Part shown: in pieces, positions 17,977-32,459 of the stretch | How the letters are laid out: each line of letters starts with the position of its first letter | How positions within the stretch are numbered: the first letter of the stretch is position 1 | Assembly: GCF_007752535.1 (NCBI RefSeq) | Contig: NZ_CP036426.1 | Coordinates: 4,340,001-4,404,000, forward strand | Length of the DNA stretch: 64,000 nt | Direction: 5' to 3' | Source: Tautonia plasticadhaerens | GTDB lineage: Bacteria > Planctomycetota > Planctomycetia > Isosphaerales > Isosphaeraceae | Notes under the pieces: generated by a model | Databases searched by the model: none | Seen by the model: only the letters and a program-made list of their open reading frames with translations | What the model was told of the DNA's origin: nothing | Translations under genes and position numbers: made by a program

Positions 17977-19260
17977 GAAAGGACAAAACTCTTCCGTATC
18001 CTGAGACCTTCGCACCAGGAGATCAAGGAGATACGCAGATGCGGCCCAGCCCCGAGATGATCCCCGTCCTCATCGATGCCGCCAAGGCCCTCAAGGGCAG
18101 TCCGAAGCGAGTCTTCATGGCCAAGACCGTCGCAGCGATGGGGCGGGGTGGACAACGCTGGGCCCAGGAGCATCTCGGCTGGTGCCGGGAGACCATCCGC
18201 AAGGGCACGCACGAACTCCGCTCGGGCATGACCTGCGTGGACGCCTTCTCGGCCCGCCGTCGCAAGCCCGCCGAGGAGCACTTGCCCCGACTCCTCGATG
18301 ACATCCGCAGCATCGCCGACGGGCAGAGCCAGGCCGACCCCAAGTTCCAGACCAAGGGGCTCTTCACCCGGATCAGTGCCGCCGAGGTCCGACGCCAGTT
18401 GATCGCCACGAAGGGCTACACCGACGAGGAGTTGCCCACCCAGCAGACCATCAACACCAAGCTGAACCTGCTGGGCTATCGCCTCTCCAGGGTGGCCAAG
18501 TGCCGCCCCCAAAAAGAGTCCCGCAGACCGATGCCATCTTCGATCAACTGAAGGCGGTCAACCCCGAGGCGGATCGGGCCAGGGGCACCCTGCGGCTCTC
18601 GATCGACGCCAAGGCGACGGTGCATGTCGGCCCCTTCTCACGGCGGGGCCGGAGCCGGACCGGCACGAAGGCGGCGGATCACGACTTCAAGCCCGTGGCG
18701 ACGCTGACCCCCTTCGGCATCTTCCTGCCCGAGCACGACGACCTGTGGCTGTACATGGCCCGGTCGAAGGTCACCAGCGACTTCATCGCCGATCGCCTGG
18801 AGCAATGGTGGGAGGGCGTCCGCCTGCGGTTCCTGCGGGTCAAGACGCTGGTGATCAACCTGGACAACGGCCCGGAGAACCACAGCCGGCGGAGCCAGTT
18901 CCTCAAGCGGATCGTGGCCTTCGCCCGCAAGTATCGCCTGGTGGTGCAGTTGGCGTACTACCCGCCGTACCACAGCAAGTACAACCCGATCGAGCGGTGC
19001 TGGGGCGTGCTGGAGATGCACTGGAACGGGTCGCTGCTGGACTCGGTGGAGGCGGTGTTGGGATTCGCCCGATCGATGACCTGGAAGCGGAAGCACCCGG
19101 TGGTCAGCCTGGTGGAGACGACCTACGCCAAGGGGGTCAGGCTGAAGCCCGAGGAGATGGAGGCGTTGGAGGCCGAGGTGATCCGCCTGCCGTCGCTTGA
19201 GAAGTGGTTCGTGAAGATCCCTCGTAAGCGAGGCAGGCCACGGAAGACGTAGCTTCTTTC
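17977..19260 (+). mobile_element. ISAzo13-family insertion sequence, ~1284 bp
   Basis: The element contains the transposase at 18039-19252 and is bounded by imperfect 27-bp inverted repeats: 17977-18003 against the reverse complement of 19234-19260, matching at 19 of 27 positions, with a shared core TCTTCCGT-n2-CCTG. The ends fall 62 bp before the transposase start and 8 bp after its stop, as expected for a compact IS. I could not see a target duplication, and the exact ends may be off by a base or two. It splits the primase-like gene; the host coding frame resumes on both sides. Confidence 0.75.
18039..19252 (+). CDS. ISAzo13-family transposase, read in two frames joined at a C5A5 tract
   Basis: The first frame (ATG 18039 to TAA/TGA-ending at 18551) carries the helical DNA-binding region; the second (from about 18500 to TAG 19252) carries the DDE_Tnp_ISAZ013 catalytic domain. 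Catalytic acids: Asp in LSIDAKATVHVG, Asp in LVINLDNGPENHSRR, Glu in YHSKYNPIERCWGVLE. Homologues run as one chain of ~400 residues, and the join KCRPQK / KRVPQTDAIFDQL falls on the run CCCCCAAAAA at 18505-18514, where a shift of -1 restores one product. This may be programmed slippage or a disabling mutation; the sequence alone cannot decide. The family is frequent in planctomycetes. Confidence 0.8.
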
Positions 19261-20716: not shown

Positions 20717-22108
20717 TCAACAACGAAATTCGCCCGAGCACGATCTCATCTCGACTGATGCAGATTTGTGGGGATACGCCGCCGGGGCCAGGGCGTAGAA
20801 CAGGACGCCTTGTAGCGGCGCGGGGAGTTCCTCGATGGCCGCCGCTCCCCCGGCCTGTGGAAAAACCCACTCCCGCCTCAGCCAGCGACGCACCGCCGTC
20901 AGCGCATCGGAGAACGTTACCCCGGCCTTGCCCGGCCAGTCCACGCCGCACGATCGCTTGGATTCCGGCAGCGCCTGATACAGCAAGGCCACGACTGTAT
21001 ACAGGCCGAACAGGCACGGCGCCGCCCGCAGGACCGTCCGCCGGCACCAGCCCCGAGTCGTCTCCAGCCCGAGGTGGCAGCGGAGTTCTTGAAAGGTCGT
21101 CTCCAGGTTCCAGCGGCCGGTGTACGCCTCGACCATCGCCACCGGGCTAATGCCCGGATCGGTGCTGAAGAAGTACTCGTCGCGATGCGTCCCGGTCTGA
21201 TCCCGGACGAAGACCCAGGCGATCTCGACCAGCCCCCCGCCCGCCTTGTACCAGTGGCCCGTACCGTGGGCGACCCCCACCGACCGCTCCCCGCCGCCGT
21301 ACCAGGCGACCGTCTCGGTCCGCAGCTCGGCGGCGGCCGACGCCTGGCTCGGCTTGGGACGCCGGGCGCCCTTGACCGGCGGCCGACCGATGCCCCGGTA
21401 CGGCGGGGGCGGGTCGAACAGGTTGGCCTCGGGGTGGAGCTTGCTGACCAGCGTCAAGCGGCCCCGATGGCGGCGGGCGAACCGGGCCAGTTCGTGGGCG
21501 CCGTAGCCGGCGTCGCCGACGAAGACGAACCGCCGCTCCGGGAACCGCAGCAGCATCACGCGCAGCAGCGTGGCCATGACCTGCGCCGGCGTGCGATGCG
21601 GGCGGCGGCGGGCCCGGTCATCCTCCTCCGAGCGATACAGGTCGACGAGCACCGGCAGGGCCCAGGGGCGGGTGGCCCAGGGGAAGCGGACCAGCACGGC
21701 GAGCACGACCCACCTGCGGCCGTACCGCCAGGCGGTGTATCCGTGGCTGGAGCGGACCGGGTCGCGGTGCCGGGCCTTGCCGTAGACCTTGCGGCCGGGA
21801 TGGCTCTCGACCGTATCGTCGCCGACCAGGGGGGCGGGGCGGTCGGCGGGCACGAGCGTCAGGACCAGCCGGGTGAGGCCGCAGGCCAGCTGAATCACCG
21901 ACCACGAGGCCGAGGAGAGGACGCGCCGATAGGTCGTGATATGGCCGGAGGCCAGGGGCGCGGCCGTCCTCAGCAGGTTGGCGACGGTGCGACGCCCGGC
22001 GGTCAGGATGGCGGCGCCAAGCAGGACGACGAAGCGGGCGAAGGTCGGCCGGGTGAAGGCGGGGCCGAGGGCCTGCAGCAGCGGCCCGGCCTCGGGTGGT
22101 AGGATCAT
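20717..22108 (-). CDS. IS701-like transposase (DDE_5 / IS4 superfamily), stop supplied by flanking DNA
   Basis: A 463-residue transposase from ATG 22108. Catalytic Asp in VGDDTVESHPGRKVYGK, second Asp in FVFVGDAGYGAHELARF, and the IS4-type Y-x2-R-x3-E signature in AYTGRWNLETTFQELR. The family name is by motif order; DDE_5/IS701 fits best. Odd feature: the frame has no stop inside the element. It reads through the left inverted repeat (from 20773 down to 20750) and 33 bp of flanking DNA, adding about 10 foreign residues (ending CSGEFRC) before the TGA at 20717. Confidence 0.85.
   Translation of the reverse strand: MILPPEAGPLLQALGPAFTRPTFARFVVLLGAAILTAGRRTVANLLRTAAPLASGHITTYRRVLSSASWSVIQLACGLTRLVLTLVPADRPAPLVGDDTVESHPGRKVYGKARHRDPVRSSHGYTAWRYGRRWVVLAVLVRFPWATRPWALPVLVDLYRSEEDDRARRRPHRTPAQVMATLLRVMLLRFPERRFVFVGDAGYGAHELARFARRHRGRLTLVSKLHPEANLFDPPPPYRGIGRPPVKGARRPKPSQASAAAELRTETVAWYGGGERSVGVAHGTGHWYKAGGGLVEIAWVFVRDQTGTHRDEYFFSTDPGISPVAMVEAYTGRWNLETTFQELRCHLGLETTRGWCRRTVLRAAPCLFGLYTVVALLYQALPESKRSCGVDWPGKAGVTFSDALTAVRRWLRREWVFPQAGGAAAIEELPAPLQGVLFYALAPAAYPHKSASVEMRSCSGEFRC
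20745..20749. repeat. Target-site duplication (left), IS701-like element
   Basis: CTCAT here is repeated exactly at 22201-22205, directly outside the two inverted-repeat ends of the element at 20750-22200. Confidence 0.8.
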
Positions 22109-22200
22109 GGCGGGTCCCTCCTCGGTCGGTGGCCGTGGGAAGCCGGTTCAACTCCCCATGCTACCGCCGAGGCGGGCCCGCGAAATCTGCACCAGTCGAG
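20750..22200 (-). mobile_element. IS701/IS4-superfamily insertion sequence, 1451 bp
   Basis: Bounded by inverted repeats beginning CTCGACTG: 20750-20773 against the reverse complement of 22177-22200, differing at only a few positions, with a shared TGCAGATTT core. A perfect 5-bp target duplication CTCAT flanks it. It carries one transposase gene on the minus strand. It has landed about 110 bp upstream of the ATG of the split DNA methyltransferase gene, so it may have separated that gene from its promoter. Intact ends, an intact transposase frame and perfect duplication suggest recent insertion. Confidence 0.85.
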
Positions 22201-22205
22201 CTCAT
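22201..22205. repeat. Target-site duplication (right), IS701-like element
   Basis: CTCAT, identical to 20745-20749 on the other side of the element. Confidence 0.8.
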
Positions 22206-22278
22206 AACCTATCAATCAACAGGAGGCTCGGGAGGAGTCTTCAAGGGAATGGCCTGGCCGCCCCGAAGGCGGCACAAC

Positions 22279-22292
22279 GCACGATGTCGTGC
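22279..22292. promoter_or_regulatory. Short inverted repeat upstream of the methyltransferase reading frame
   Basis: GCACGATGTCGTGC: two perfect 6-bp arms around a TG centre, 18 bp before ATG 22311. It is placed where an operator or a leader hairpin could control the split methyltransferase gene, but 6-bp arms can also occur by chance. Confidence 0.3.
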
Positions 22293-22310
22293 AAACGAAG
22301 GGACTCAGCA

Positions 22311-22653
22311 ATGCTGACCAGCTACTACACGATCGAGGCCGAGGTCACGGGCATCTCGGCCGGCCGAATCGACCCCGTGGTCGATGCGATCTCCAGGACC
22401 GCCTCCTGGGAGATACCCGTAGAGGGGTGGTGGACGGAGGAGCACTCCATCTCTATCGAGAGCCAGGCCATGCTCCGTGCCGGCGAGCGACCTGAGTCGT
22501 TCGCCGAGCGAATTGCCCGCTCGACCTGGGCGGCCAACTCGGAGTATTGCCCGGTCTCGTTGACGATCGACCGGCCCGACGGATCGCGTCGTCAGGTCTT
22601 CGAATTCGCTGAACCCGACCACCGCCGATTGACGGGCGGCGAGGGGATCGAAC
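22311..22653 (+). pseudogene. 5' part of a DNA methyltransferase gene split by the ISAs1 element (N-terminal extra domain)
   Basis: From ATG 22311 the frame encodes 114 residues, MLTSYYTIEAEVTGISAGRI, SWEIPVEGWWTEEHSISIE and so on to GGEGIE, and is then cut by the IS at 22654. Removing the element and one copy of its 10-bp duplication joins this frame exactly to the adenine methyltransferase frame at 23925 (GIEPRRATPQRKTFRSGN, then VVKKPVPLKHYGGK), with no stop in between. The ancestral gene therefore coded for a ~400-residue protein: this unrecognised N-terminal domain followed by a D12-class methyltransferase. The N-terminal domain has no visible catalytic motif. Confidence 0.65.
22644..22653. 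repeat. Target-site duplication (left), ISAs1 element
   Basis: GGGATCGAAC, repeated exactly at 23915-23924 on the other side of the element; 10 bp is within the usual size for ISAs1 insertions. Confidence 0.9.
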
Positions 22654-23914
22654 CAGGGCAAACGCACCTAATTTTCGGCATTTCCGCACAATACTCGTTG
22701 CAGGTAGCCATCGTCCCAGGCAGCTTGCAGTCGCTTCCCTTTGATACTTCGCCTGGAGGTGGATTCCTTCTTCAGCAGGCACAACGCCAGCCGACGCAGC
22801 AGCCCAAAGTTCTCCGGGGCGTTCTCCTTCCTGATCCGGCTCCGGTCCTCGTCGAACGTCACGTCCAGGACCCAGTGCAGCGAGTTCTCTACGGCCCAAT
22901 GGCTCCGGACGGCCTCGTTCAACAGCTTGGCGTCATTCTCCAGGCTGCTGAGGTAGTACCTCGTCTCCACGCTCAACTTGTCGCCGATGAACCGCTCGGC
23001 CTCGATCATCACCACGCTCCGCAGGCCCTCCCACTCCTCTCGGCCCTTCAGCCGGGAGAGGTCCGAGGTCGCCCAGTACCGGCGGAACTCGTCCCGCCCG
23101 TGGCCCTCGGACCACTCCCGGTGGTAGCCGATCTCCGGCCCCCTCATCAGCCGGGGACTGACCCCGTCCCAGAACGCCACGACCTGCTCGAAGAGGTGCT
23201 CGTGGTTAGCCTTCAACGCCAGGACGTAGTCGGCCTTGCGGCCCCGGATCGTGCGGGCGATCTCCTTCTGGCACCCCATGGCGTCGATGGTGACGATCGC
23301 CCCGGCGATCGAGAGCATCTCCAGCAGCCCGGGGATGGCGGTGATCTCGTTGGACTTCTCGTCCACGGCGACCTGGCCCAGCAGCAGGTGATTGGCCGTG
23401 GCCCAGGCATGGACCATGTGGAGGGCCGATTTCCCCCTGGCCCGGTCGAAGGAGCGTCGGAGGGCCTTGCCGTCGATGGCGACGACCTGCCGCTCGGTCG
23501 CCTCGTGCAGCGCCTCGATCCAGCCGAGGAAGCCCCGCTGGAACTCGTCGGGGTCGAGCCGCTCGAAGAGGCGGCGGAAGGTGTCGTGCGAGGGGATGCC
23601 GTTGGGCAGGTCCAGGAAGGTGCTCAGCCAGGCGAGCTTGGCGTTGCCGAAGTCCTCGATGTCGTCCCAGGAGGCGGCCCCGGCGACGACCGCACAGATG
23701 GCGATGGCGATGATGTCGAGGAGTTCGTGGAGGCGGGAGCGGTCGATCCGGGGGTCGGTCAACTCGGCGAAGTGGTGGGCGATGGAGAGTTCCTGGGCGG
23801 CGGTCATGGCGATCCTCCTGGATGCTTCGGGATCGAGGAGGATTACCAGAAGTCGGCGTCGTCGACCACCTTCCCGCCGTCACATCAGAGTACCCTCATG
23901 GTGCTCCGACCCTG
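22654..23914 (-). mobile_element. ISAs1-family insertion sequence, 1261 bp
   Basis: Ends begin CAGGG on both sides: CAGGGCAAACGCACC at 22654-22668 against CAGGGTCGGAGCACC read inwards from 23914, 10 of 15 matching with CAGGG and GCACC conserved. A perfect 10-bp direct repeat flanks the element. It carries a single intact transposase on the minus strand. It splits the DNA adenine methyltransferase gene in frame. The perfect duplication indicates a recent event. Confidence 0.92.
22668..23807 (-). CDS. ISAs1-family transposase
   Basis: A complete 379-residue transposase from ATG 23807, with AGGAGGATCGCC just upstream as ribosome site. Family landmarks: DIIAIAICAVVAGAASWDDI in the N-terminal DUF4338-like helix, catalytic Asp in VVAIDGKALRRSFD, second Asp in VTIDAMGCQKEIA, and Glu in HWAVENSLHWVLDVTFDEDRSR, the IS4-superfamily YREK region. 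The stop lies inside the left inverted repeat. No defects are visible, so the element may be active. Confidence 0.95.
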   Translation of the reverse strand: MTAAQELSIAHHFAELTDPRIDRSRLHELLDIIAIAICAVVAGAASWDDIEDFGNAKLAWLSTFLDLPNGIPSHDTFRRLFERLDPDEFQRGFLGWIEALHEATERQVVAIDGKALRRSFDRARGKSALHMVHAWATANHLLLGQVAVDEKSNEITAIPGLLEMLSIAGAIVTIDAMGCQKEIARTIRGRKADYVLALKANHEHLFEQVVAFWDGVSPRLMRGPEIGYHREWSEGHGRDEFRRYWATSDLSRLKGREEWEGLRSVVMIEAERFIGDKLSVETRYYLSSLENDAKLLNEAVRSHWAVENSLHWVLDVTFDEDRSRIRKENAPENFGLLRRLALCLLKKESTSRRSIKGKRLQAAWDDGYLQRVLCGNAEN

Positions 23915-23924
23915 GGGATCGAAC
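23915..23924. repeat. Target-site duplication (right), ISAs1 element
   Basis: GGGATCGAAC, identical to 22644-22653. Confidence 0.9.
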
Positions 23925-23968
23925 CCCGTCGCGCTACGCCGCAACGCAAGACCTTCCGGTCGGGTAAC

Positions 23969-24829
23969 GTGGTCAAGAAACCGGTGCCGCTGAAGCATTA
24001 CGGAGGCAAGGCCCCGCTGGCACCGTGGATCGTGGGGCTCCTTCCCGAGGGCCGATCCTACGCCGAACTCTTCGCCGGGGGCGCCTCCGTACTCTTCAAC
24101 CGGCCCAAGGCCGGGCGAGAATGGCTCAACGACCTCGACCCCGAGGTCATGCGGTTCTTCGAGCAACTCCAGGACCCGGGTTCCTTCCAGGTAATACGGA
24201 GAGTTGCTGACGAAGCCTGCTCAGAGTTGTCGCATCTCTGGGCTCCGCTCGACCTGGACGACGACAACACCCGGGTCAAGGAGACCTACCGCCATCTCAA
24301 GGAGCGGTACAAGGCCGAGCAGGACCCGTCCGTCGCCGCCGGCCTCTTCTTCGTGTTGAAGAAGATCGGTCGGAACGGGGATACCTCATCGGTCGTCACC
24401 TCGTCCCGTTACCGCCGTTCGATGCCCGAGTCCCTCTCGGCCCTGCTCTCGGCATGCGAGGAGTTGCCTGCCTTCCACGCGCGGCTCAAAGGCGTCCACC
24501 TCAGCCAGAGAGACGCCCTGGGCCTGATCGACGAGATCGACGAGGAGGGCGTCGTCCTCTACCTCGACCCGCCCTACCTACATGCGACTCGCCGTACGGT
24601 CCACAACTACGGCATTCGCGAGATGTCCGAACCCGACCACGAAGCGTTGCTCAGACGCCTGCTCAGGTGCCGTTGCTCCGTGGCGATCTCCGGGTATCCC
24701 AGCGACCTCTACGATGGGTGCCTGACCGGAGCCCCCGGCTGGGTACGCCACGAGAAGGAGGTCCGCTGCTCGTCCTCGAATCACTGCAAGGACACCCGCC
24801 GGACCGAGGTCCTCTGGGTGAAGCGGTGA
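23969..24829 (+). CDS. D12-class DNA adenine N6-methyltransferase, 3' part of the split gene
   Basis: From the GTG at 23969 the frame encodes 286 residues covering a whole Dam-type methyltransferase: HYGGKAPLAPWI (SAM-binding motif, 10-21), AELFAGGASVLFNRP (32-46), WLNDLDPEV, and the catalytic DPPY at 200-203 in VLYLDPPYLHATRR. Orphan enzymes of this class methylate adenine in DNA for host regulation or protect phage and plasmid DNA. The recognition sequence is not deducible and no restriction gene is adjacent. The original start was at 22311, before the ISAs1 insertion; the GTG, or transcription reading out of the element, could still allow translation of this catalytic part. A strong hairpin follows at 24855. 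Confidence 0.8.
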   Translation: MVKKPVPLKHYGGKAPLAPWIVGLLPEGRSYAELFAGGASVLFNRPKAGREWLNDLDPEVMRFFEQLQDPGSFQVIRRVADEACSELSHLWAPLDLDDDNTRVKETYRHLKERYKAEQDPSVAAGLFFVLKKIGRNGDTSSVVTSSRYRRSMPESLSALLSACEELPAFHARLKGVHLSQRDALGLIDEIDEEGVVLYLDPPYLHATRRTVHNYGIREMSEPDHEALLRRLLRCRCSVAISGYPSDLYDGCLTGAPGWVRHEKEVRCSSSNHCKDTRRTEVLWVKR

Positions 24830-24854
24830 GATCGCAGCCCAGTCACGACGCGCA

Positions 24855-24891
24855 AACGCCCATCGAGGCCCGAATCAGCCTCGTGGGCGTT
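24855..24891. terminator. Hairpin between convergent genes
   Basis: AACGCCCA(T)CGAGGC at 24855-24869 pairs with 24878-24891: 14 base pairs with a single bulged T and an 8-nt loop. It lies 25 bp after the methyltransferase stop and 56 bp from the stop of the converging Cys-rich gene. No T-tract follows, but the stability and position suit a terminator for either strand. Confidence 0.6.
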
Positions 24892-24947
24892 CGCCGATCG
24901 GGCATACGAAGCCGGAACGGTGGTATGGTGCGAATCGTCCCGGGGCC

Positions 24948-25292
24948 TCACGTTACTGTCCCCTCCCCGGGATCGCCCCGATCGGGCAACGGCTCCCCTT
25001 GGCAACGGCAGTGGAAGTCCAAATCGTCGGAGAAGCTGTGCGGCCCCCAGCCCTCGTTAACCTGCACCGGACAAGTGAAGTGCTCGAAGACGGTCTCCAG
25101 GCGGTGCCGGGAGGCGGGGTGGCAGCAGAGGCCCCAGTCGGAGTTGAACTTGGCATAGTACGAGCAGCCGCCGCACTGCTCGCCGGCCTTGTACCGCCGA
25201 CGGACCTCCGGCTCCCCCGGCCAGCCCGCCTCGTAGAGGGTGCGCGCCTCGTCGTTCGACCAGCCGCCCGTGACGATCATGTTCCGGTTCAT
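24948..25292 (-). CDS. Cys-rich hypothetical protein (114 aa)
   Basis: I do not recognise a named family. The product has six cysteines in the middle and end: EQCGGCSYYAKFNSDWGLCCHP, FEHFTCPV and DFHCRCQGEP. The C-x2-C...CC...C...C-x-C pattern suggests a metal or Fe-S site. No signal peptide or membrane helix. Start ATG 25292; a second Met follows at codon 5. The stop is 52 bp from the start of the RNA-ligase gene's 3' end on the same strand (25345), so the two may be one transcript with the ligase upstream. Confidence 0.6.
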   Translation of the reverse strand: MNRNMIVTGGWSNDEARTLYEAGWPGEPEVRRRYKAGEQCGGCSYYAKFNSDWGLCCHPASRHRLETVFEHFTCPVQVNEGWGPHSFSDDLDFHCRCQGEPLPDRGDPGEGTVT

Positions 25293-25344: not shown

Positions 25345-26442
25345 TCAGTGCTCGTCGGTGCCGCCCTTGCGGGCCAGGTAGTCCGCCGAGATCGACTTGA
25401 GGATCACCCGACCCGAGCCGCCCAGGGTGGCATCGTATCGCTCCCGGACCGGCACCACGACGCAGCCCTCCCGCCCGGCGAACCGGCCGGCATCCTCCGG
25501 CGGGCACATCGTCGTCGGCCCGTAGGTGTGCTCCTCGACGACCTCCCACGAGAACGGCCCCCGGTACAGCACCGGCACCGCCTCGATGCCGAATCGACCC
25601 AGCAGGGCCGCCTTCTCGTCGTGGCCGAGGTGCGTGCCGTCCACGGCGAGGTCGAAGGCCCGGAACCCCTTGGCGCCGTTGGCCATCCCGTAGGCCATGT
25701 CCTGCACCCTGCTGCCGTACAACTCGCCGAAGAGAACGACACTCCGCTGGCCCTCGCTGACGTGTCCCAGCAGGCCCTTCACCGCCTCAGTCATCGGCAA
25801 CCAGAAGTCAGAGGGCCTTCCCTTGGCGTCCACCGGCCTGCGGCGCACGTCGTTGGAGCCGGCCACGAACTCGAATCGTTCGCCCGCCTCGTCGGCGACC
25901 CGCACCAGGCCCAGGCGGCAGTTCTTGCCGTGCAGCTTCTCGGTGATGACCACCTCCTCGCCCGGCACGAGCACGTCGGGGAAGTTGCGGATGTTCTCGA
26001 TGTCGGTGTAGCGGTGGAACGACGGGATCGGCGGCGGGGAATCGCCGTCGGTCGGCCGCACCGGCGGCTCGAACTTGGTGACGCCGTAGTGCTCCCGCAC
26101 GTCCCGGCCGACCTCCCAGGCCGGATCGACGGCGTGGTCGATCGTCCCGTAGCTGGGCTGGCCTCGCAGCCGAGCGGCCCGGACCCGCAGCCCCGGCTTG
26201 CGGCTGTCGTCGATCTCCCGGGGCAGCGGCGCCAAGTACTTGGCGATGCCCAGCCGCTCGGCAAGCTCCTGGGGCATCACCGTGTCGGGAGGGAAGTAGA
26301 CCACCCGGTCGCCGGGCTTCAGGGCCAGGGCCTTCTGGACGATGACCTGCCAGCCCTTGACGGTGATGAACTCCAGGGCGTCGGCGTTGGGATGCGGATG
26401 GACGGCCTTGACCTCGCAGACCTCGACGACCAGCGTGCTCAT
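25345..26442 (-). CDS. RNA ligase, DraRnl / Rnl5 type
   Basis: A 365-residue ligase of the Deinococcus DR_B0094 (Rnl5) type. Residues 1-110 form the N-terminal OB-like domain (VEVCEVKAVHPHPNADALEFITV). The nucleotidyltransferase domain carries motif I VITEKLHGKNCR with Lys169 as the AMP-accepting lysine (K-x-x-G), motif III VVLFGELYG and motif V RVILKSIS near the C-terminus. This family seals nicked RNA using ATP, especially 3'-OH/5'-phosphate nicks in duplexes. Length matches the family. Upstream of ATG 26442 is GAGGTCCCC, a weak ribosome site. The Cys-rich gene follows on the same strand. Confidence 0.88.
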   Translation of the reverse strand: MSTLVVEVCEVKAVHPHPNADALEFITVKGWQVIVQKALALKPGDRVVYFPPDTVMPQELAERLGIAKYLAPLPREIDDSRKPGLRVRAARLRGQPSYGTIDHAVDPAWEVGRDVREHYGVTKFEPPVRPTDGDSPPPIPSFHRYTDIENIRNFPDVLVPGEEVVITEKLHGKNCRLGLVRVADEAGERFEFVAGSNDVRRRPVDAKGRPSDFWLPMTEAVKGLLGHVSEGQRSVVLFGELYGSRVQDMAYGMANGAKGFRAFDLAVDGTHLGHDEKAALLGRFGIEAVPVLYRGPFSWEVVEEHTYGPTTMCPPEDAGRFAGREGCVVVPVRERYDATLGGSGRVILKSISADYLARKGGTDEH

Positions 26443-26618: not shown

Positions 26619-28121
26619 CTACGGCCCCTCGACGACCACCTCCATCCGCACCTCCACCGGCTCCTCGCCCGGCCCGGTCCCCCGCAGGACCGCCTCGTAG
26701 CGCCCCGGCCCCCGGTACGCATGGCGGGCGAGGTCCCGGATCGCCTCGGGCTCCGACCCGTCGCCGAAGTCGATCCGCACATCCTCACCGGCCCGGACCA
26801 GCCGGTTCTCGAACGTCACCTCGTCGCCGGGCCGGATGCCACGCACCGGGGCATGGTAGAACCAGCCGAAGGCCATCCGCCGACCCCGCCCCGGGTCGTA
26901 GATGCGCACCTGGGCGTGGTCCCGGTCCTCGGCGCCGTCGGCGGTGCGGACGACCAGCGTCTCGCTGTACAGCCCCGGGCGGTCGTAGCGGACCTCGGCC
27001 ACCGGGCCGTGGACCTCCCGACCGTCGTGCAGGCGCCAGGTGTGTTCAGCGATTTCCCGACCCTGGCGGGCGAGGCTCCGGCTCCCATCCAGCCGGATCG
27101 TCTGACCCGGCAGGCCGAAGTGGTAGCCGCCGGCGACGGCGAGCGATGGGTCGTCGTAGTCCCGCAGGTATGCCTCGACCAGGAACGGGTAGGTGCTCAG
27201 GTTCGTCCGGCCGTATTGCAGCTCGACGTGCAGGTGGTGGTCGCGCACCTGCGACTTGCGCCCGTCCCGGGTCATGCCGGTTCGGCCCAGCACCCGCCCG
27301 GCCTCCACCTCGGTCCCGACGACGAGGGCCGGGTCGATCGTCTCGATGTCCATGTGCGCGTAGAGCACCCGCATCCCGGACGGCGCCTCGATCGCCAGGT
27401 AGTTCGAGTCACCGTCGCCGCCGGGCGGCGGGGCGACGACGACGGTGCCGCCCGTCAGTGCGACCACCGGCAGCCGGCCGGGGATGGCGCCGAGTTCCTC
27501 GCCCCGGTGGTAGTAGAGGAGGTTGTAGGGGACCAGTGACAGCCAGGTGTTGTTATAGGAGGCCGAGCGCCAGCGATACTCCCCGATCGGGAAACGCAGG
27601 TCCTCGGGCCCCCAGGGCTCCCCTTCGGCCACCGCAGAGAGCCGCACGTCGCCGCCCCGCCAGGCCAGTGGTTCGATCCGGGCCTCGGTGGCCCAGGTGC
27701 GGGTGGCCTCGACATAGAGCCGCAGGCCGTTGACGACCACCGGCATCTGGTGGGGCCGGGCAAGCAGGGTCGCCCGGACCCCATCGACCTCGACGACCAC
27801 CTCGGCCATCCGGAGCGTCTCACGGCGGTCGTTGTCCTCGATCCAGAGATCGGTCTCCCAGTGCTCGGCGACGGAGACCAGCCGGACGGTCCGCTCGACG
27901 GGGCCGTCGCCCGAGGGCCACCAGAGGTTGTAGGTGTCCCCGAGGCCCATCTCGAAGACCACGGGCCAGCCTGGCTGGTCCCGGATGACAATCGCCCCGG
28001 CCGATGCGGGGTCCATCTCCGGCGCCGGATCATCCGTTCCGGAAGCGTCACGGGCCGCTGCGGAGCCGATCATGAGGCCGAGGAAGATCGCCGGGAAGAG
28101 AGCAGGGATGCGGGTCGCCAT
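26619..28121 (-). CDS. Secreted M23-type metallopeptidase-like protein with PKD domain
   Basis: A 500-residue exported protein. ATG 28121 gives a signal peptide (hydrophobic 6-22, cleavage near AAARD). Residues ~205-305 form an LytM/M23 fold: HRGEELGAIPGRLPVVALTGG with His205, RVLYAHMDIE with His256, and DHHLHVELQYG with His296 and His298. At the usual Asp of the first ligand motif (HxxxD) there is Glu209, so the zinc site may be altered. A PKD-like domain (~335-410, IRLDGSRSLARQG) and a second beta domain (FENRLVRAGEDVRIDFGDG) follow. Likely acts on or binds cell-wall or extracellular material; whether it is catalytic is uncertain. Confidence 0.8.
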   Translation of the reverse strand: MATRIPALFPAIFLGLMIGSAAARDASGTDDPAPEMDPASAGAIVIRDQPGWPVVFEMGLGDTYNLWWPSGDGPVERTVRLVSVAEHWETDLWIEDNDRRETLRMAEVVVEVDGVRATLLARPHQMPVVVNGLRLYVEATRTWATEARIEPLAWRGGDVRLSAVAEGEPWGPEDLRFPIGEYRWRSASYNNTWLSLVPYNLLYYHRGEELGAIPGRLPVVALTGGTVVVAPPPGGDGDSNYLAIEAPSGMRVLYAHMDIETIDPALVVGTEVEAGRVLGRTGMTRDGRKSQVRDHHLHVELQYGRTNLSTYPFLVEAYLRDYDDPSLAVAGGYHFGLPGQTIRLDGSRSLARQGREIAEHTWRLHDGREVHGPVAEVRYDRPGLYSETLVVRTADGAEDRDHAQVRIYDPGRGRRMAFGWFYHAPVRGIRPGDEVTFENRLVRAGEDVRIDFGDGSEPEAIRDLARHAYRGPGRYEAVLRGTGPGEEPVEVRMEVVVEGP

Positions 28122-28780
28122 CGGGTGGGATGCCTCATCGCTGGTTCGTGCTTTTGAGGATGTTGATCGGGGGATGGCTCCGGGATGCCAGCCGGGCGAG
28201 CCGGGCGCCGAGGACATCTTAAACGATGCCAGTGGCCCGTCGCGTCGGAGGAGTCCCGCCATCGAGACTTATGCCGCCCGTGGGCCCGTGTATCCGAGGC
28301 TCGATGTCGACGGGGACTGAGGGGACCCAACTTTCGCCGGGGCTATTACCAACGGCAATTTCCCCGAAATGCAACTCCTGTTGGGTTATCAAGCCGGCCC
28401 GGTTGTCTGTTCTACTCAGCCCGGCCGGAGCCTCTTAGTCTCTATGGATTGTGAAATAATTGATTGTCGCTATATCTTGTGGCAAGGATTCCACTGGTGG
28501 CGCGGGCCGTAGGAAAGGATTCCAGGCAGCGAGTACACGAACCGACAACGCCGAGACGACGGTCGCTATCAACTGGTGTTACGACGTACCCTTGAGTGGC
28601 GAACGGCGCTCCCTGTCCGGATGGCCTGCCTGCCCCCCGAATTAGCCAAAGCCCAGGGTCGACCGCCGGCCCCTCCGCTCGCATCCACACCGGTTATTAA
28701 CCCAGCGGGACGTACCCTCGTACCGGGCCGACCTCCAAGGCGAGGACATCAGCGAGTAGCCGGCCCAGTCGGCATTCCGC
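28122..28780. other. Intergenic stretch without a gene
   Basis: About 660 bp between the M23 gene start and the stop of the DUF2809 gene, both on the minus strand. Base composition is mixed, with an AT-richer stretch near 28,440-28,500. I find no coding frame with family features, no tRNA and no strong repeat. The part just upstream of 28121 must hold the M23 promoter; none is obvious. Confidence 0.4.
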
Positions 28781-30975: not shown

Positions 30976-32202
30976 TCACCGACGGAAGTCGAGCCCTCGG
31001 ACCATTGCCCGCAGGTTCTCCTTGTCGTGCTGGTCATAGTGTTTCTGGGTCTCGGTAGTCGTGTGGCGTAGCTGCGACTTGACCTGCTCGGCAGACAGTC
31101 CGAACCACTGCTTGGCGTGGGTCGTCATCGAGTGGCGGAACATCTTCCATGTCGCATGGTCGATGCCCGCCCGCCCGGCCAGGGCCTTGAGTTGGTCGAG
31201 CGGCTTGTAGCCCGGCGTGCTCGTGACCCAGGGCTTCTGCTTCGCGTTCGGAAAGACCCAGCGGCACGTCCGGTGTCGCTCCCAGTCACGGAGATTGTCG
31301 ATCAGGGCGTCGGGTAGCCCAATGGGGGCGGCCGCGCCCTCGGTCTTGAGATCGTGCTCGATCTTGAAGTTCAGCCAGGCGATGCCCGCCTCCCAGTCGA
31401 TCTCGTCCCATTCCAGGTGCAGTACCTCGCCGATCCGCGCCCCGGTGTAGGCGGCGAAGTAGACGAGGGCCTGGAGCCGGCGGCGACCCCAGTCCTCCGG
31501 CCGCTCGGCGACCTCCCGGTCAGCCTGGTCGAGCAGGGCGACGATCTGCTGCCGAGTGAAGTGCTTGGGCTTCGCCTCCATGATCCGCTGCTTGGCACGT
31601 TTCTGTCTCGCGCCCACGCTGGCCCGCCCCCGCCCGGAGAAGGGGTTCGAATCCTCCGGGCGGTGTTTCCAGTCCTCCAGGACGTTGAAGAACAGCCGCA
31701 GGAGCCGGAGGTCGGCGTTGACGCTATCGGCCGAGGGGACCTCAACCAGCCGCTTCTGGACGTAGGTCTCCCGGACATCGCCCGCAATCTCGTGGCACCA
31801 GCCCGGCTGGGCGATCCGCCCGAAGTCCTTCAGGACCCGCCGCTCCCCGAGCATCGACTTGAGGCTCTTGCCCCAGGCGCGTTCGGCCTCCTTGCGTCCC
31901 GCCGGGGGCAGGTCGTGGCCGGGGTAGTGGGTATCGAGGTACTTCTTCTGGAAGTCGTCCCAGGTGATCGGGTCGAGGCTCTCGCGCCGGTCGGGGGCGT
32001 TGAGTTCCTTCTCCAGGTCGGCGGCGGCCTGGCGGGCGTAGGTGGCGGATGCATGCTTGCCGAGGGACTGGAAGCGCCGTCGCCCGAATTCCACCCACTC
32101 AAGCGTGTAGCTGGTGGTGCGGCTGCCGTCCTTCAGGCGGTTGTTCTTCCGCTTCTTGATCCAGACCTTGATGAACTTGCGGATGGGCAACCGGCTCGAC
32201 AT
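30976..32202 (-). CDS. Tyrosine recombinase / integrase
   Basis: A 408-residue site-specific recombinase. N-terminal ~130 residues form the arm- and core-binding domains; residues ~210-400 the catalytic domain with Arg256 (TGARIGEVLHLEW), Lys286 region, Arg356 in TWKMFRHSMTTHA, His380 in SQLRHTTTETQKHY and the nucleophile Tyr389. The first His of the usual HxxR box is Lys353 here, a tolerated variant. The ATG at 32202 removes a Pro/Cys-rich upstream stretch. It lies 184 bp from the 3' end of tRNA-Lys(CTT), a classical attachment site, and converges with the excisionase-like gene. It most likely integrates the island to its left. Confidence 0.9.
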   Translation of the reverse strand: MSSRLPIRKFIKVWIKKRKNNRLKDGSRTTSYTLEWVEFGRRRFQSLGKHASATYARQAAADLEKELNAPDRRESLDPITWDDFQKKYLDTHYPGHDLPPAGRKEAERAWGKSLKSMLGERRVLKDFGRIAQPGWCHEIAGDVRETYVQKRLVEVPSADSVNADLRLLRLFFNVLEDWKHRPEDSNPFSGRGRASVGARQKRAKQRIMEAKPKHFTRQQIVALLDQADREVAERPEDWGRRRLQALVYFAAYTGARIGEVLHLEWDEIDWEAGIAWLNFKIEHDLKTEGAAAPIGLPDALIDNLRDWERHRTCRWVFPNAKQKPWVTSTPGYKPLDQLKALAGRAGIDHATWKMFRHSMTTHAKQWFGLSAEQVKSQLRHTTTETQKHYDQHDKENLRAMVRGLDFRR

Positions 32203-32348
32203 GGCCCCGACCTCCCGACCAGCCAGCGCAACACTTCGCGCAACACATTTTGCGCACGGCGGGAACGAGGGGGCAAGATTGGGCCGTCGCAATCGCCGCA
32301 AGCTGTCGGAATCGGCTACGGAAATGGCTTTGGCGACATGAAGATACG

Positions 32349-32380: not shown

Positions 32381-32386
32381 CTGGAG

Positions 32387-32459
<73 letters not shown>

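Follow-up and report, generated by a model that had tools for sequence, protein, structure and literature searches.

What was the gene that an insertion sequence (IS) split in Tautonia plasticadhaerens, a single fused gene or two neighbors, and does its interruption reveal selection, regulation or chance? The window analyzed here, a stretch of 64,000 nucleotides, covers positions 4340001-4404000 of an 8.67-Mb contig in an assembly of six contigs; the genome report on T. plasticadhaerens ElP (PMC7716859) gives 9,395,224 bases in one chromosome and five plasmids. A preliminary sequence-only reading had described the locus as a DNA adenine methyltransferase with an unknown N-terminal domain, split by an ISAs1 element in a precisely reversible way. 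For the most part, the locus emerges from the present analysis as an ordinary IS-interrupted methylase on probably mobile DNA (Table 1). In addition, the analysis defines a family of small proteins, comprising nine members other than that in the window and having a confidently predicted fold, for which the libraries hold no model.

Table 1. Features of the interrupted gene and its surroundings (window coordinates)
Feature	Position	Strand	Basis or remark
ISAzo13-type transposase, two overlapping frames (18039-18551, 18500-19252)	18039..19252	+	PF07592
Upstream insertion sequence, IS701 family	20750..22200	.	NF049999
IS701 transposase frame	20717..22108	-	as listed, 33 bases beyond the element's left end
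N-terminal part: module of ~107 residues, then first part of linker	22311..22653	+	family profile, AlphaFold2, GC3 0.83
Left target-duplication copy, GGGATCGAAC	22644..22653	.	
ISAs1-family insertion sequence, 1261 bp	22654..23914	.	
ISAs1 transposase, 379 aa	22668..23807	-	PF13808, PF01609, NF033564
Right target-duplication copy, GGGATCGAAC	23915..23924	.	
Rest of linker	23925..23968	+	other frame with TAA 23965-23967
Apparently complete D12-class adenine methyltransferase (286 aa, counted from its own GTG)	23969..24829	+	PF02086, phrog_56, TIGR00571
Tyrosine recombinase (integrase)	30976..32301	-	PF00589
tRNA-Lys (CTT)	32386..32459	-	adjoins integrase

The insertion and the methyltransferase

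The insert is an ISAs1-family element located between perfect 10-bp copies of GGGATCGAAC. Members of this family have related terminal inverted ends and duplicate 8-10 bp of their target, and the present element shows no notable difference from them: its termini read CAGGGC... and CAGGGT..., with the CAGGG shared with the family, the flanking repeat is 10 bp long (12 matching bases with the element's terminal G and C included), and the intact transposase frame of 379 codons scores 414.5 bits against the NCBIfam model NF033564 (cut-off 70). The left end is supported by a partial copy elsewhere in the genome that matches bases 1-52. The insertion into this gene is an ordinary event that had been observed correctly from the outset.

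When the flanks of 343 and 905 nt are joined, the resulting empty site of 1248 nt consists of 416 codons with a single, terminal stop, that is, a frame of 415 codons open throughout, close to the approximately 400 codons originally claimed. Because the repeat is perfect, the sequence of the empty site is independent of the exact place of the target within it; if the frame is displaced at the join by one base or by two, it closes after 128 or 137 codons. Third-position GC is high in both halves of the interrupted gene, 0.83 and 0.84. With the element in place, the frame of the N-terminal part (22311-23993, plus strand) runs on without a stop along the antisense strand of the IS and ends out of frame with the methylase, probably a side effect of high GC.

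Given the perfect duplication and the open empty site, the claim of precise reversibility is correct as a description of the anatomy, and an on-off switch, in which precise excision of the element restores the fused gene, could be imagined. However, the same anatomy characterizes any IS with a clean duplication; moreover, the assembly contains no excised copy, each half of the gene having one match in its own genome. Nor is there any sign of recent spread, inasmuch as, among the 25 own-genome matches listed (40 of the 351 first-look candidates were scored), the element occurs at full length just once, the remaining 24 matches being partial and 66-85% identical. We consider such a switch extremely improbable.

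The catalytic part of the gene is intact: it lies wholly downstream of the element, contains neither stops nor frameshifts and, in an alignment of eight sequences, retains the SAM-binding motif I and the catalytic DPPY of D12 methylases. It matches PF02086 with 66.5 bits (cut-off 22; profile positions 3-210 of 253), in agreement with the class assigned in the sequence-only reading, and also matches phrog_56 of PHROGs. The insertion has taken away no catalytic residue, leaving an apparently complete enzyme of the phage type. Homology to the Dam-type enzymes of TIGR00571 extends over residues 7-281 (profile positions 4-263 of 267), but at 66 bits the match does not reach the cut-off of 114.85, and GATC specificity is therefore not to be assumed.

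Relatives of the methylase were detected at the family level in 10 of 45 genomes (E <= 1e-8, its own included; the others 28-38% identical), at the class level in 13 of 397 genomes (E <= 1e-30, its own included; best identity 40%), and in 85 records of phages, Streptomyces phage ZL12 among them, and 60 of plasmids. Like the phage and plasmid D12 methylases (PF02086, phrog_56), the enzyme shows a match over nearly the full length and keeps motif I and DPPY; it differs in that the best identity is only about 40%. Among the ten proteins of the stretch that were compared with PADLOC, methylase-type matches were obtained for the methylase only, and none of the ten matched a restriction nuclease model; the enzyme would probably be an orphan that modifies the DNA of the element or of the host. 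The B-protein model of PD-Lambda-5 (PDLC04018) also matches the methylase with E 1.8e-11, the best stretch comprising only residues 1-67, and is outscored by three Type II methylase models; the partner A protein was sought among those ten proteins only.

With respect to expression, the homology in 24 relatives begins at residues 3-11 of the frame that starts from GTG 23969 (with one exception, at residue 30, according to the domain tables), which makes this GTG a plausible natural start. The frame extends back to ATG 23822, inside the end of the element. No strong ribosome-binding sequence was seen by eye before GTG 23969, and a scan covering one promoter type yielded no promoter-like match in 22150-25000. 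Either of these two starts might still allow production of the catalytic part.

The N-terminal module and its small-protein family

The first part of the gene had been presented as an unrecognized domain of about 130 residues. Unrecognized it is with respect to the libraries, Pfam, PHROGs, NCBIfam and PADLOC all giving zero matches, but it can now be placed in a family of small proteins, and its size has to be corrected: the conserved module comprises about 107 residues and is followed by a linker of 22 codons, not conserved, that reaches to GTG 23969. Against a profile of the nine other members, from which the window sequence was excluded, the N-terminal part scores E 1.7e-12 (database size 20000), a test that is not wholly independent, since the nine were partly found with profiles containing the window sequence. 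Shuffled versions of the N-terminal part were listed by the same profile at E <= 10 in 0 of 200 cases, and the first link to a relative was made with the window sequence alone (E 5.1e-5).

The family is sparse. A search of the phylum (392 genomes) at E <= 0.001 returned the own gene and three others, among which only that in genome G180, a pair of small genes in tandem, held up. Further members were found via profiles: L061 (on the same contig as the G180 pair), L062 and L063 in genome contigs, L065 in a genome of the class, and L066 (the same as L083), L080, L081, L082 and L084 in viral contigs. L080 and L081 encode an identical protein, and the distinct other members total nine. The contigs of L061 and L063 are labeled as planctomycete MAGs and that of L062 as a Candidatus Nealsonbacteria MAG. 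At E <= 0.001, the module is present in 2 of 397 genomes of the class, its own included; in the family table (45 genomes, E <= 10) the own gene is the sole row below 0.001, the next being at 0.002. Neither tblastn with the module or two relatives against phages and plasmids nor viral scans with single or three-row queries yielded a relative, and a viral scan with the methylase alone as query likewise came back without one.

Two other, weak candidates were discarded, L003 (E 7e-4), where the match lies inside a frame of 556 codons, and L004 (E 8e-4), which has an internal stop; neither genome was recovered by the three-row profile at E <= 0.01, which produced two other weak rows, G360 and G343. 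In a small ORF set, weak single-sequence matches to L003 and L004 persist (E 9e-5 and 4e-4).

The other members likewise fall outside the catalogued families. The two L002 proteins gave chance-level rows only (Pfam zf-RING-like, E 0.13; phrog_36418, E 0.061) and nothing in NCBIfam. Seven further relatives also had no NCBIfam match, a sole Pfam row with partial coverage (RuvA_C, E 0.053), and weak, partial PHROGs rows to phrog_9870 (E 0.0046), phrog_11155 (E 0.012) and phrog_37610 (E 0.023), all three of which are families of unknown function.

AlphaFold2 models of the window N-terminal part (mean pLDDT 84.3, pTM 0.80) and of L062 (mean pLDDT 87.4, pTM 0.78) show the same predicted order of elements, strand-helix-strand-strand-helix-strand-strand-helix. 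The best matches of the models among solved structures are designed ferredoxin folds, and the fold searches otherwise returned general ferredoxin-like matches and uncharacterized viral proteins. The module is predicted to adopt a ferredoxin-like fold, which is a common one and says nothing firm on function. A phage SAM lyase (6zm9) appears among the matches of the L062 model (Z 7.1, rmsd 3.8, 98 aligned residues), at rank 7 among tied rows and with a score no better than those of the neighboring rows. A profile search of solved-structure sequences retrieved only short stretches of designed proteins, judged spurious.

The window member shares with this unnamed family the profile match and, with L062, the predicted order of strands and helices. 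It differs in lacking the ATYLE.LP stretch seen in most members and in being open in frame into a methylase. In the neighborhoods of several relatives (L062, 3110-4202; L063, 2419-3550; and upstream of the L080/L081 member), other small genes occur, and by eye the neighbors are alike: the neighboring proteins of the L062, L063, L080 and L081 members begin with MADRMAA or MAERLVA, or are MADNYLEFSEV-like. This recurrence suggests an accessory gene cluster around these standalone members.

One gene or two

At the sequence level, the fusion of module and methylase is real, and the architecture is unique within the data searched. The sequence-only reading had proposed looking for the fused form in relatives. 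It was found at none of the nine module loci and, in a difference from other phage and plasmid D12 methylases, the in-frame module is absent from all 24 other bacterial methylase loci (flanks of up to 1.5 kb) and from all 80 viral ones, which were kept out of at least 562; the fused gene did not turn up a second time in the genomes searched. The converse arrangement, with module and methylase as separate neighbors and a stop between them, which the same reading had named as contrary to a fusion, was not found either: in the loci examined, the two are not neighbors. The flanks examined around the nine other members, which extend to at most 5 kb (some 1.5 kb in the case of L065) and in several cases stop at a contig end, showed no D12 methylase. 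The architecture may be a recent, lineage-private fusion or the product of a slipped stop.

The second of these possibilities amounts to an explanation that is mutually exclusive with a fusion, namely, two adjacent, nearly touching genes in one transcription unit that never formed a stable fusion, the stop of the first having been erased, before or after the arrival of the IS, by a one-base slip in its unconserved tail or by a sequencing error. If read one base out of frame, the first gene would encode 128 residues and run into a TAA one base ahead of GTG 23969, a common layout of neighboring genes; this length lies within the range of 106-133 residues seen from the start in eight of the nine other members, the start of L063 being unsettled. 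Furthermore, all nine stand alone as separate genes, and three of them (the 118-residue member of L002/L061, L062 and L063) share about 4-8 bases with the small gene that follows, where the start of the gene after the L062 member was assigned by hand. The chance that two separate genes would appear in frame and open across the linker is about 0.19. Nevertheless, the frame as sequenced is open, and no methylase accompanies any of the nine relatives in the flanks examined. On balance, we regard the two-gene explanation as rather unlikely, while taking it seriously.

If the fusion is accepted, it could be read as a 'Rosetta stone', according to which the uncatalogued small ferredoxin-like proteins would be partners of DNA adenine methylation or of its cofactor, for example by guiding or braking an orphan methylase; the insertion at the linker would have parted the two, with the enzyme still able to act unguided. 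This is a long shot. The single fused case is a first, weak lead to the role of the family, and the family, together with the possible fusion to a methylase, is a modestly interesting by-product of the study of an otherwise ordinary insertion.

The surroundings of the locus

The second insertion, reported earlier as lying just upstream, is confirmed and assigned to the IS701 family; it is outside the gene frame, ending 110 bp before the ATG. The element is 1451 bp long, with inverted ends, and its bounds follow from two genomic copies that align exactly from 1 to 1451 (87% and 74% identity); partial genomic copies start at 1 or stop at 1451. It is flanked by CTCAT at 20745-20749 and 22201-22205, a possible 5-base duplication. 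Its transposase scores 254.5 bits against NF049999 (cut-off 170) and 69.9 against the older model NF033540, under the cut-off of 150. About 1.5 kb to the left of this element there is an ISAzo13-type transposase, probably broken, whose frames match positions 1-67 and 65-306 of PF07592, the first with 23.7 bits, below the cut-off of 26.9. Together with the ISAs1 element, this makes three transposase loci within 6 kb.

From the two insertions, which were taken to be independent, selection for the loss of the methylase had been deduced, and the presence of two complete IS within 3.2 kb (20750-23914) is what speaks for it. However, only one of the two interrupts the gene, the third transposase suggests a general gathering of IS in this stretch, which also contains an integrase, and the catalytic domain has kept its motifs and is free of stops and frameshifts. 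IS-rich surroundings can explain two insertions without selection, and we hold selection for loss to be highly improbable.

The reading that we prefer combines a D12 methylase bearing an N-terminal module, a mobile stretch and one chance ISAs1 insertion into the linker; taken as a whole, it seems to us reasonably probable. An enzyme of the phage or plasmid type, encoded in a stretch rich in IS and next to the integrase at tRNA-Lys, would have borne at its N-terminus a small ferredoxin-like module, elsewhere an independent small protein, that would serve as an accessory part. A single ISAs1-family element would then have transposed between module and methylase, duplicating 10 bp, a chance event in relaxed mobile DNA that would have removed the fused form.

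To the right of the methylase, there follow an RNA ligase gene, a DUF4291 gene, a helix-turn-helix gene and the tyrosine integrase, which lies 84 bases from the tRNA-Lys gene. The ligase, which adjoins the methylase (25345-26442, minus strand), is of the phage type (PF09414, phrog_968) and includes the PHA02142 OB-fold domain; the protein encoded at 26619-28262 (minus strand) combines an M23 peptidase domain with PKD domains. Between 16 and 34 kb, all but one of the nine 2-kb bins have a GC content of 0.65-0.68, the exception being 26-28 kb (0.718); the bins outside have 0.68-0.72. The stretch looks like acquired DNA that tolerates insertions, with the tRNA-Lys gene as a possible integration site; the term 'mobile' is applied to it on the basis of gene content, its left border not being settled.

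In the rest of the window, no stretch of more than 12 bases from the tRNA-Lys 3' end is repeated. In the genome, 44 bases of the 3' part of this tRNA (window 32386-32429) recur in direct orientation, with two mismatches, at G000:C1:4181670 (L166, L167), 190.7 kb to the left, where ARAGORN detects no tRNA. This copy may mark the distant attachment site of an integrated element of very large size, or it may be left over from integrations that took place earlier.
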